Shown here: in pieces, positions 22,263-48,945 of the stretch
Layout: each line of letters opens with the position of its first letter
Numbering within the stretch: the stretch's first letter is position 1
DNA from: Streptomyces sp. NBC_01591
Lineage (GTDB): Bacteria > Actinomycetota > Actinomycetes > Streptomycetales > Streptomycetaceae
NCBI RefSeq assembly: GCF_035918155.1
Contig: NZ_CP109327.1
Location: 4,774,001 to 4,838,000 of the forward strand
Direction: 5' to 3'
DNA: 64,000 nt
Notes under the pieces: model-generated
Seen by the model: the letters and a program-made list of their open reading frames with translations, nothing else
Database searches by the model: none
What the model was told of the DNA's origin: nothing
Position numbers and translations under genes: made by a program

Positions 22263-23534
22263 ATGGACGTGAACGCGGCAGTCGCCGCAGCTGCGGCGAT
22301 CGGCGGTGCGTGTACCGGCGTCATCGCCATGCTTGCGTTCCGCTGGAGCGAGCGCGACCAGAAGAAGCCGACGCGAACCTCCATGCGGCCCGACAGCAAC
22401 GCGCCCCTGCCGCCCGGGGTGGACACGGTCCTGTCCGTGCTCAGCTCCTCGGCGGTCGTGCTCGACGAGAGCGACAGTGTGGTCAAGGCCAGTTCCGCCG
22501 CCTATGCGCTGGGACTGGTCAGGGGCGGACGGCTCGCCGTCGACGCGATGCTGAACATGGCCAGGGACACCCGCCGTGACGGTGAGATACGGCAGGGCGA
22601 ACTGGACCTTCCCCGGCGCGGCACGGGCCGCGGCGAGGCCCTCGCGGTCTCCGCCCGGGTCGCCCCGCTCGGCTCCCGGCTGGTGCTCCTGCTGGTCGAG
22701 GACCTCACCGAGGCCCGCCGGATAGAAGCGGTACGGCGCGACTTCGTCGCCAATGTCAGCCATGAGCTCAAGACCCCGGTCGGCGCGCTCTCGCTGCTCT
22801 CCGAGGCCGTGATGGACGCCTCCGACGACCCGGAGGCGGTGGAACGGTTCGCGGGCCGGATGCAGATCGAGGCGACCCGGCTGACCAACCTCGTACAGGA
22901 GATCATCGACCTCTCGCGGGTGCAGAACGACGACCCGCTGGAGGACGCCGAGCCGGTCCGGGTGGACGAGCTGGTGGCCGAGGCCATCGACCGCTGCCGC
23001 CAGCAGGCCGGCTCGAAGCAGATCACCATGGCGGCGGGCGGCACCGCGGAGCTTCGTATCTGGGGCAACCGCGGCCAGCTCGCCGCGGCGCTCGGCAATC
23101 TCGTCGAGAACGCCGTCAACTACAGCCCCGCCCGTACCCGAGTGGGCATCGCCGCCAGGCGACTGTCCGTGCCCGGCGGGGACCAGATCGAGATAGCCGT
23201 GACCGACCAGGGCATCGGCATCTCGGAGAAGGACCGCGAGCGGGTCTTCGAACGCTTCTACCGCGTCGACCCGGCCCGCTCACGGGCCACCGGTGGCACC
23301 GGCCTCGGCCTCGCCATCGTGAAGCACGTGGCCGCCTCGCACGGCGGGGAGGTCACGGTCTGGAGCTCGGAGGGCCAGGGCTCCACCTTCACCCTGCGGC
23401 TGCCCGAAGCGGGCTCCGTACGGGAACGGGACCGCAGCTCGGGACCGCCCGTCGTCAACGGCGACGAGGGCCCCCATGGACCCGCTCACCCCGACACCCT
23501 TGAATCATTCCCTGCCCCGGAGGTCCTTCCGTGA
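22263..23534 (+). CDS. phoR: Phosphate sensor histidine kinase PhoR (SenX3 type)
   Basis: 423 residues. One N-terminal membrane segment (about residues 4-25), a PAS-like region (45-140), then HisKA with phospho-acceptor His167 in NVSHELKTPVGALSLLSEAV. The HATPase_c has N-box LGNLVENAVNYSP, G1 VTDQGIGISEKD, F-box FERFYRVDPARSR and G2 GTGLGLAIVKHV. A 40-residue tail of low complexity follows. It phosphorylates PhoP at low phosphate. The stop overlaps the phoP start (GTGA), so both are translated from one message controlled by the PHO box. Confidence 0.93.
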   Translation: MDVNAAVAAAAAIGGACTGVIAMLAFRWSERDQKKPTRTSMRPDSNAPLPPGVDTVLSVLSSSAVVLDESDSVVKASSAAYALGLVRGGRLAVDAMLNMARDTRRDGEIRQGELDLPRRGTGRGEALAVSARVAPLGSRLVLLLVEDLTEARRIEAVRRDFVANVSHELKTPVGALSLLSEAVMDASDDPEAVERFAGRMQIEATRLTNLVQEIIDLSRVQNDDPLEDAEPVRVDELVAEAIDRCRQQAGSKQITMAAGGTAELRIWGNRGQLAAALGNLVENAVNYSPARTRVGIAARRLSVPGGDQIEIAVTDQGIGISEKDRERVFERFYRVDPARSRATGGTGLGLAIVKHVAASHGGEVTVWSSEGQGSTFTLRLPEAGSVRERDRSSGPPVVNGDEGPHGPAHPDTLESFPAPEVLP

Positions 23535-24211: not shown

Positions 24212-24224
24212 ACCGTCAGGTGTG

Positions 24225-24272
24225 CGAACGGCGGAGGGCGCTCCCCGAAAGGGAGGCGCCCTCCGCCGTTCG
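24225..24272. terminator. Terminator behind phoP
   Basis: CGAACGGCGGAGGGCGC and GCGCCCTCCGCCGTTCG pair, followed inward by TCCC/GGGA around a short CGAAA loop; about 21 pairs with one offset. It lies 14 bases after phoP and 49 bases before the end of the convergent lipoprotein gene. Confidence 0.8.
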
Positions 24273-46768: not shown

Positions 46769-46992
46769 CTCGTACCTCTCGCTCCTCACCGTCAGCGGCG
46801 CCGCTGAGCTGCACGGATACAACCATGGTCACCCCGGATGACCACCCCCGCATCGACCGATCGGCTGATGGGGCCGTCGACCGTCCCGCGTGCGGCGTCG
46901 AGCCGGTCCGTCGACCGTGCGGTGCGGGCGGCGGCCGGAGGATCGATGGCAGAGCCGAACACGCTCACCCACCGCTGCTGAGGAGTCCCACC

Positions 46993-47550
46993 ATGAAGAA
47001 GCTGTCGCTGCGCACCCGTGTCCTGACCGGTGCCGCTGTCGTCGCCGCCATCGGCGCCGGGACCTTCGGCGCGATGTCCGCCAGCGCCTCCACCCCGGCC
47101 GCCGCCCCCGCCGCCGTCGTCAAGGCCGACGCCGCGAACGACAACCTTCAGCAGACCACCCACCTGACCGTGGCCGCCGCCACCAGGGCCGCCCAGGCGA
47201 CCCTCGACGCCGCGAAGAAGGAGAACCAGCGGGTCTCCGTCGCCGTCGTCGACCGCAACGGCAACACCATCGTCACCCTGCGCGGCGACGGTGCCGGCCC
47301 GCAGGCCTACGAGTCGGCCGTGAAGAAGGCGTACACCGCCGTCGCCTGGAACGCCCCCACCTCCGAGCTCGCCAAGCGCCTGACGAACGCCCCCACCCTG
47401 AAGGACATCCCCGGCACCCTCTTCCTCGCCGGCGGCGCCCCGGTCGCGGTCAAGGGCGCCCCGATCGCGGGCATCGGCGTCGCCGGCGCCCCGTCCGGCG
47501 ACCTCGACGAGAAGTTCGCCCAGGCCGGCGTGGCCGCGCTCAACAACTAA
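46993..47550 (+). CDS. hbpS: Exported heme-binding protein HbpS (GlcG/HbpS family)
   Basis: 185 residues. Signal peptide LRTRVLTGAAVVAAIGAGTF with cleavage after SASA, then an Ala/Pro linker and the GlcG/HbpS domain: LTVAAATRAAQATLDAAKKE, NQRVSVAVVDRNGNTIVTLR, GPQAYESAVKKAYTAVAWNA, and GIGVAGAPSGDLDEKFAQAG. HbpS binds heme and iron outside the cell and modulates SenS. It diverges from senS (about 225 bases between starts). The stop codon overlaps by one base the edge of the MITE-like element, which may now supply its transcription terminator. Confidence 0.88.
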   Translation: MKKLSLRTRVLTGAAVVAAIGAGTFGAMSASASTPAAAPAAVVKADAANDNLQQTTHLTVAAATRAAQATLDAAKKENQRVSVAVVDRNGNTIVTLRGDGAGPQAYESAVKKAYTAVAWNAPTSELAKRLTNAPTLKDIPGTLFLAGGAPVAVKGAPIAGIGVAGAPSGDLDEKFAQAGVAALNN

Positions 47551-47709
47551 GACCGACCGGCAATTGGGGGGCGGCGTCGCGGGGCTGGGTGCGCGCATCT
47601 GCCGCGTTGTCGTCAATCACCATGGCTCCGCCATGCCTCAATCCTCCGCCTTGCAGCTGCACGCGCCCAGCCCCGCTCCTTCTCCCACCCCCCAATTGCC
47701 GGTCGGTCT
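47550..47709. mobile_element. 160-bp MITE-like element with 22-bp perfect terminal inverted repeats
   Basis: The ends are AGACCGACCGGCAATTGG followed by GGGG (47550-47571) and the exact reverse complement (47688-47709). Inside lie sub-terminal repeats GCGGGGCTGGG (from 47579) and CCCAGCCCCGC (ending 47675), and a small CATGGC-TCC-GCCATG hairpin (47621-47635). CTAAG occurs directly at both borders (47547-47551 and 47708-47712), compatible with target duplication. No coding capacity. It sits exactly on the stop codon of hbpS. It could move with a transposase in trans or act as a long bidirectional terminator. Confidence 0.65.
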
Positions 47710-47742
47710 AAGCACCGGGCACGCCCAGCAGGAGGAGTAGGA

Positions 47743-47796
47743 CATGAACGCCCTCGATCGACAACTGCTCGACGCCGCACGCACCGGCGACAGGTG
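47743..47796 (+). pseudogene. Remnant of an ankyrin-repeat gene start
   Basis: ATG to TGA encodes only MNALDRQLLDAARTGDR. This is the typical beginning of small ankyrin-repeat proteins, whose next residues would be the first repeat. Here the stop follows immediately, overlapping the start of the next gene (GTGA). A GGAGGAG ribosome binding site is retained. The rest of the gene has been lost. Confidence 0.5.
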
Positions 47797-48945
47797 AACG
47801 TGCGCCGCGCGGTGGTGGCCCTCGTTGCGGCGACGGCCCTCGCGGGCTGTGCGGGCGGTACGCAGGCCGCCCCGACCGCGACCCGTACGCCGGGCAGTGC
47901 ACCGGCCGGTCAGGCCGCCCCGTCGCCGCCCCCTCCGCGGGGAAGGCCGGCCGGGCCACCCCGCACGGCACGCTCCTCGTCGCCGACTTCGGCGGCGACA
48001 CCGTGACGTTCGTCGACCCGGATCCCGGCCACGACCGGCACACGCTCGGCTCCGTCGAGGTCGGAACCGCCCCCTACGGCCTCGTCGTCGACGACGACGG
48101 GCTGGCCTGGGTGGCGACCGCCGAGGGCGTCGCGGTCGTCGACACGCGCGACCCGCACCAGCCTCGCCCGGATCCCGTACGAGACAGGGACCGGCCCTGT
48201 CACGACCGGCGAGTACCGGGGCGGTGGCATGGGGATCGCGCTGGCCCCCGACGGCCGGCACGTCTACGTCGGCGTCAATGTGCCCGGCCGCAACGGTGTG
48301 CTGGAGATCGTCGACACCGCGACCCGCAAGGTGACCGGCACGGTTCCGGTCGGCCGCCGCCCCTTCGACGTGGACGTCTCGCCGGACGGCAAGGAGGTGT
48401 ACGCCACCGGCCACGACTCCTTCGACGTCACGGCCGTGAACACGGCCAGCCGCAGGACGCGGCGCTTCGAGGTCGCCCCGTACGGCACCGAGGGCGGCCT
48501 CGGCTCCTGGCTGAAGCCGCACTACGCCGTCGTACGCCCTGCGGACGGCAAGCTGCTGCTGCCGTTCGAGGGCGAACGGCTCGTCGTCCTCGATCCGCGC
48601 ACCGGCAGGAGCACCATCGAGCCGATGACCGCCAACACCCACCAGCACGGCGCGACGCTCGCCCCCGACGGCACCCTGCTCGTCGTCGGCACCGGCCCGA
48701 TCCTCTCCGACGACAAGGGCCCGTCGCTGACCATCCGCACCCCCGAAGGCTCCGAGCGCGTCGTGCCGCCGGACGGGCCGCACGAGGACGTGACGGTGTC
48801 CGGCGACGGCCGTACGGCGTACGTCACCGAGGGCTTCACCCGCGACGGGTACGGCAACGGCATCACCGTCGTCGATCTCACGGGCAGGAAGCGGCCGTTC
48901 GAGGTGGCTGCCGGCGCCCGCCCCCTGGGGATCGCATTCCTCTGA
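47794..48945 (+). pseudogene. Frameshifted YncE-like beta-propeller lipoprotein
   Basis: Three consecutive pieces belong to one protein. Piece 1 (GTG at 47794, frame 1) has a lipobox signal RRAVVALVAATALAGC. Piece 2 (about 47935-48165, another frame) reads TPHGTLLVADFGGDTVTFVD and TAPYGLVVDDDGLAWVATAE. Piece 3 (from about 48165, back in frame 1) reads GIALAPDGRHVYVGVNVPGR and later propeller blades to the stop at 48943-48945. Two compensating shifts therefore interrupt the gene. Sequencing errors in these GC runs are an alternative. The intact form would be an extracellular seven-bladed propeller. Confidence 0.65.

Follow-up and report, generated by a model that had tools for sequence, protein, structure and literature searches.

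The window analyzed here, a stretch of 64,000 nucleotides from Streptomyces sp. NBC_01591, contains hbpS, the gene for a haem-degrading HbpS-like protein, and directly after it an element of 158 bp (47551-47708), whose borders were set by comparing copies and which has a TAA triplet on either side. The features of the locus, in window positions, are as follows.

46993-47550, plus strand: hbpS, haem-degrading HbpS-like protein (Pfam PF03928, E 7e-30; from the sequence)
47548-47550, plus strand: left target duplication TAA, which is the hbpS stop codon (TAA/TAA on both sides)
47551-47571, plus strand: left terminal inverted repeat, which shares its first 17 bases with the end of an IS5-family insertion sequence
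47573-47678, no strand assigned: structured core of covariance models R1 and R2 (R1 122.2 bits, E 5.4e-22); the reverse-complement strand folds better
47604-47609, plus strand: near-invariant GCGTTG, CAACGC on the minus strand, where CAA is a bulge; 1 of 56 aligned cores departs (L065)
47621-47635, plus strand: apical hairpin, with a stem that varies with compensation and a loop, TCC, kept in most cores
47647-47653, plus strand: strongly conserved CGCCTTG, CAAGGCG on the minus strand, where AA(G) is a bulge; a few cores differ by one base
47688-47708, minus strand: right terminal inverted repeat (from the sequence and copy comparison)
47709-47711, plus strand: right target duplication TAA (from copy comparison)
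47744-47797, plus strand: short frame remaining from the truncated ankyrin gene, the full-length gene having about 200 codons in L167 and L183

The original prediction, made from the sequence alone, described a pair of perfect 22-bp inverted ends, further inverted repeats in sub-terminal position, a small hairpin inside and CTAAG on either border. All of these are present, the ends (AGACCGACCGGCAATTGGGGGG) measuring 21-22 bp within the corrected borders; the outer inverted pair of the element spans 28 nt at 93% and the inner pair 37 nt at 76%. The element also lacks coding capacity, as had been proposed, in that the overlapping open reading frames of at least 80 aa start or extend far outside it. 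Its left end had been placed on the last base of the hbpS stop codon. The element does adjoin the stop, but the stop is the TAA at 47548-47550 and the element starts at 47551; the earlier borders, 47550..47709, were one base wide at each end because the A/T there is also part of the inverted repeat. Each CTAAG consists of the TAA with a flanking base at one end and an element base at the opposite end. Because the TAA that was duplicated serves as the stop codon of hbpS, the stop is preserved. The fold of 47540-47720 on the plus strand has -109.6 kcal/mol (z -10.5) and that of 47551-47708 on the minus strand -116 (z -11.8), with 0 of 200 shuffles as good in either case.

The genome (10.25 Mb, 3 contigs) contains seven full-length copies of the element at different places, with 90-100% identity, among 26 match rows for the element and 34 core matches. 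There is also a diverged copy, L009, with GAGCGTCCGG ends; L008 and L010 match in the core only, and solo ends occur too. Equal 3-bp TNA flanks (TAA or TCA in the scored orientation) border six of the seven full copies, L006 being the one without, and L009 is likewise flanked by TCA/TCA. When target duplications were scored over 19 rows, which comprised window-type copies here and elsewhere, L009 and two fused-end copies, 12 had matching flanks, and five of the seven non-matching rows lie in other genomes. In those genomes, four of nine scored copies with the end class of the window element have matching flanks, one of them as CAA rather than TNA. Taken together with the relatives that lack the element (described below), the comparison of copies, target duplications and empty sites upholds the predicted mobile MITE-like repeat and does not show a sequence that occurs once per genome between conserved flanks.

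Two variant forms were also found. In genome G075, L050 (C1:1354058), one of the copies with non-matching flanks, has a window-type core and GACCGG-type ends and lies between two CTAG instead of TNA. Two 26-bp palindromes of the present genome, L038:1501-1526 and L040:1501-1526 (C1:2848106 and 3061806), are two ends fused at CAATTG, one flanked by TTA/TTA and the other by TTA/TAA; they would be either minimal remnants or minimal mobile units.

A blast search with the end alone revealed, on the plasmid NZ_CP109482.1 of another Streptomyces strain, a 982-bp insertion sequence (IS) that has the same ends, encodes an IS5-family transposase and is likely to be the partner of the element. Its left end agrees with that of the element in 17 of 17 bases and its right end in 16 of 17, and its flanks are TAA/TAA. 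A second copy of this type is flanked by TTA/TTA, two more Streptomyces copies have TNA duplications, and a Rhodococcus copy combines a TNA duplication with 4 and 2 mismatched end bases and a GAGCGTCCGG left end like that of L009. Equal TNA flanks were recorded in five IS copies (L083, L448-L451), TAA three times and TTA twice. A related IS in G010 with GGGCGTCCGCCGG ends has TAA or TTA flanks in 3 of 3 cases, and another, L119 (G100), has unequal flanks, TAC/TAA. The partner transposase matches NF033580 (IS5 family, E 1e-39), PF13340 and PF01609, and matches to it at E <= 1e-40 are present in 18 of 121 genomes of the genus. In the genome of the window itself, no close intact partner transposase was found and the relatives are broken or distant, the best being 57% identical and split into two overlapping pieces in different frames; one IS right end there is a remnant. 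The 24 IS-type loci among the 34 sources examined contain no core match. The resemblance to the IS is confined to the ends (about 17-21 bp), and the interior is not IS-derived. According to PMC12016507, elements of the IS1031 group within the IS5 family target TNA and are bordered by a 3-bp repeat. The TNA duplications and the IS5-family transposase point to the window MITE as a putative IS1031-like derivative of this family.

The empty sites come from relatives of hbpS. We found 210 of these and kept the best 80 named loci, all from Streptomyces; the core is absent around 80 of 80, within at most 3 kb a side (some shorter at contig ends, and L150 to 27 bases downstream). Among the alignments of these relatives, 22 span the joined flanks, many with a gap just after the stop. 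The alignment of S. gelaticus continues across the insertion point, with TGA opposite the TAA of the window, and its sequence there is AACTGAGCGCC, in place of AACTAAG and the element. In S. atratus JCM 3386, the 14 bases TAAGACCGACCGGC after hbpS (L213:3556-3569) are the stop codon and the left end, and 15 bases on, the sequence resumes at the equivalent of window 49003, in the leader of the next gene (peptidase); this locus reads as the same insertion, probably followed by a later deletion. The two damaged genes predicted to the right of the element are real: a truncated ankyrin gene and an apparently frame-broken propeller lipoprotein gene occupy 47744-48945. The ankyrin gene was truncated by a deletion that, compared with L167, removed about 543 bp; its breakpoint lies near 47792, some 80 bp away from the element. 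Both L167 and L183 have the gene at full length, and in S. gelaticus (L134) and L173 it is likewise cut or missing, so the loss is not tied to the element. Elsewhere in the window, core model R1 matches weakly at 24222-24271 (E 0.055) and 23232-23291 (E 0.17), in both cases probably by chance.

The element is therefore very probably a MITE with IS5-family ends that was moved in trans, inserted at CTAAG and restored the stop codon of hbpS. An IS5-family (IS1031-like) transposase would move it, insertion into CTAAG would duplicate TAA and thereby restore the hbpS stop, and the central 106 nt or so would be a folded module that travels through the Actinomycetes in MITEs with several kinds of ends. 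Dispersed copies, TNA duplications, IS with the same ends and duplications, and relatives without the element were all observed; movement in trans is what we infer. Once the target and the partner are known, both the stop-codon placement and the mobility are ordinary. The original prediction had also suggested that the repeat was exapted as the terminator of hbpS. A terminator or mRNA 3'-end stabilizer would suit the strong hairpin directly after the stop codon, but no Rho-independent terminator (G+C stem with a U-run) was found in 46900-48300 (0 hits), the 80 hbpS relatives lack the core, and other copies adjoin other open runs, on either strand; this proposal did not hold up and we regard it as improbable. 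A chance inverted repeat or a local feature present in a single unit is refuted by the z of -10.5 and by the copy number in this genome, and can be set aside almost entirely.

Target choice can explain the placement of the MITE on the hbpS stop. In the genome of the window, a coding-like open run ends at the duplication in five of eight copies (L001, L003, L005, L007 and L009), as judged with a self-set filter of 70 codons and a GC3 rule rather than a gene finder. Genome G057 contains a recent burst of near-identical, CTAG-flanked copies of about 160 bp (L273-L325), 53 of which were fetched. Among the 51 clean-ended ones, the left flank is where an open run of at least 80 codons stops in 29 copies, the right flank in 13 and both flanks in 7. 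CTAG itself is scarce in these flanks, with 13 sites, or 0.089 per kb vs 2.7 expected from base composition, and 6 of the 13 end an open run of at least 80 codons. Probably because the targets are rare inside GC-rich genes and are often stops themselves, the element family often lies at stop codons. The flanks in G057 are CTAG/CTAG in 38 of 51 copies; among the departures, TTAG on the left (3) and CTAA on the right (3) are the commonest and are consistent with duplication of the 2 bp TA at YTAR, and the other 7 fit no single pattern. Judged by these flanks, the CTAG-type relatives may belong to IS630-type transposases. For CTAG-type ends, no end pair at IS distance was present among the matches listed in 41 genomes or in G057; the loci scanned gave none either, save one 644-bp spacing in L275, and no partner appeared among the plasmid matches listed or in the regions examined, not all of them up to the far end.

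The unusual part of the element is a shared folded core between unlike ends. The original prediction took the element as a marker of a family in the genus, and such a family is present, with matches to the element query in 75 of 121 genus genomes, but the genus limit proved too narrow, as the folded core is also found outside. Among the matches listed outside the genome of the window, most cover about positions 23-133 of the query, not its ends. A class-wide search with core model R2 at E <= 1e-3 (strict filters, 13 candidates scored per genome) was positive for 74 of 296 Actinomycetes genomes, spread over 20 of 114 genera; 23 of these genomes belong to the same genus as the window and 51 lie outside it. 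We typed the ends of 28 of the 34 matches in the genome of the window, using seven types with self-set prototypes and at most 4 mismatches; GACCGACCGGCAATTGG occurs in 7, GAGCGTCCGGCAGTAGG in 3, the GTCGTTTGGATCA type in 6, GGGCCTGTCCGGCGGATCA in 6, AAGGGCTGTCCCGTAAT in 2, GGTCGTGTCCGTCAAGTC in 2, GTGCCCCTCCCGGCAAG in 1 and another end in 1. Other genomes add GGTCCTGTCTGGAGTT, GGGCGTGTTTCGAAAGT and GGGCGTGTCTGACAATTC, which brings the end types to at least 10 in this self-set classing, not to be equated with ten independent origins because some resemble one another. In L256, from another family of the class, the core lies between GAGCGCCCGGCAATAGG-type ends with TAA/TAA flanks. In the plasmid collection, partial matches include some with Streptantibioticus and Embleya as their named hosts. 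Carriage of the element by phages was considered and rejected: the phage collection gave no match for the window element or L227, and viral contigs gave 0 for one exact pattern.

The core of about 106 nt is a covarying hairpin with near-invariant bulges. In an alignment of 37 cores (A2), 96.1% of cells are paired and changes on both sides occur in 14 of 28 pairs, the structure being based on RNAalifold of the same alignment. Four of the five measures were reached by 0 of 500 shuffles and the number of further pair types by 148 of 500; with slid partners, pairing drops to 28-42%. In 56 cores (A5), 94.4% are paired and both-side changes occur in 19 of 28 pairs; four measures were again reached by 0 of 500 shuffles and the fifth, further pair types, by 54 of 500, in an alignment that leans towards the structure since its cores were fitted to the model. 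On the minus strand, the pattern reads GC-AA(G)-GGCG ... CAA-CGC, with unpaired bases that are near-invariant in the 56 cores, and two bulges around a helix of 3-4 bp recur in nine folded cores of different subfamilies. The minus strand is the more stable in 56 of 56 cores (mean -67.3 vs -52.2 kcal/mol). A.C mismatches outnumber G.T (47 vs 10; per pair, 12 vs 5), which points to one strand and suggests a minus-strand reading, in an excess that leans on two pairs (24 of 47). Rfam 15 gave no match above gathering for window 46900-48400 and 13 core loci, two microRNA rows lying far below. Core variants with an apical part longer by about 38 nt were seen in L084:3027-3171, L224, L235, L236, L238 and L239.

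The orientation of the core relative to replication was counted in 22 genomes with a usable dnaA position, from the best rows only and, for the genome of the window, on the main contig only (G004, G007, G055, G118 and G246, with dnaA off-centre or at a contig end, were left out; no row was listed for G023 or G295, and G065 gave no match). Among the matches listed, 187 of 263 have the model strand plus right of dnaA and minus left of it, or 135 of 203 without G057; genome by genome, 17 follow this trend, 4 run against it and 1 does neither. The burst in G057 is oriented with the replication arm in 45 of 53 copies (p 2.4e-7), and p values of this kind are only indicative because the matches are not independent. 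By the flank at which a run ends, the concordant copies in G057 are 19 of 22 where only the left does, 4 of 6 where only the right does and 15 of 16 where neither does. Concordance varies with end class: 17 of 21 for the GTCGTTTGGATCA type, 11 of 11 in G019, 0 of 5 for class j of G374, and 95 of 148 in the classed set once G057 is excluded. No bias is seen in the end class of the window element (4 of 9). In G066, class i (L326, L330-L333, L337 and others) is concordant in 4 of 17, opposite to the general trend. The orientation bias is thus strong in G057 and is not established as a general rule. DNA-fold stability is unsupported as its cause, the minus strand being the more stable in unbiased families as well (39 of 40 rows with a value; in L356, no core lay in frame).

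What the core does may be viewed in different ways. With somewhat less than an even chance, and compatibly with the MITE since it concerns the core only, it may be an old non-functional palindrome that travels as a passenger, one arm having been copied from the other via hairpins with no selection. Where pairs have changed, almost all remain Watson-Crick and one-sided changes are few, and recent copies in G057 rearrange their arms: the right arm has been copied to the left in L323, L325 has a loss and L310 a doubling of 8 bases. The number of further pair types, no higher than in many shuffles, is in keeping with this. End pairs 73-77 bp apart, too short for the core, occur three times among the matches listed, and given these and the 26-bp fused-end copies, the core seems dispensable for the ends and duplications. 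Arm copying, however, leaves unexplained the near-invariant unpaired bases (TTG and CTT on the plus strand) that persist with different ends, as well as the excess of A.C over G.T. We tentatively consider that the core could instead be a functional hairpin, a minus-strand RNA or folded single-stranded DNA that would be recognized via its AA(G) and CAA bulges and would aid spread or tolerance. The recurrence of the bulges across subfamilies with near-invariant bases, the wobble-like mismatches that fit the minus strand, the spread over 20 of 114 genera, and a covariation score, percentage paired and both-side changes that no shuffle reached all argue for it. Against it stand the absence of an Rfam family and the short copies without room for the core; moreover, the mismatch asymmetry leans on two pairs, and the fitting of A5 favors structure. 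A bolder and rather less likely reading is that such a functional minus-strand hairpin has spread through Actinomycetes between the ends of several unrelated transposases, with cargo and ends evolving independently and with insertion oriented by the replication fork in some lineages.

The window element as an IS5-family-ended MITE resembles known MITEs of IS5-family (IS1031-like) IS in being short and non-coding, with inverted ends shared with an IS and a 3-bp TNA duplication, and differs from them inside, where a conserved folded module separate from the IS lies between the ends. Insertion at TA within YTAR, as in IS630/Tc1-mariner-type MITEs, suits the CTAG-type relatives but does not concern the window copy; no IS630-type partner with CTAG-type ends was found, and the assignment comes from flanks only. 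PMC2170065 states that IS630-type elements duplicate TA, and a title in its reference list refers to an IS630 preference for CTAG. The window's end class is without orientation bias, and its ends and duplications are of the DDE type; some core relatives, above all in G057, are oriented with the replication arm in the manner of IS200/IS605 and Tn7 (TnsE), for which PMC5371812 describes an orientation bias with replication. No title or abstract opening in the literature covered describes this element family, which is weak evidence given that subscription literature lies largely outside that coverage. A further likeness is to REP/BIME palindromes, which are dispersed and imperfect, have conserved unpaired bases and go with RAYT (HuH) transposases. 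The element is likewise a dispersed imperfect palindrome with conserved unpaired bases, whereas its long inverted ends and target duplications are as for DDE transposases.

A MITE is usually read as a shrunken form of its own IS; here, the ends change by lineage and the folded, bulged center stays. This makes it testable whether the center is a passenger or the thing being carried. The family also suggests a low-cost way to spread in GC-rich genomes, in that the target, in the one genome measured, is rare and is often a stop codon that the duplication restores.
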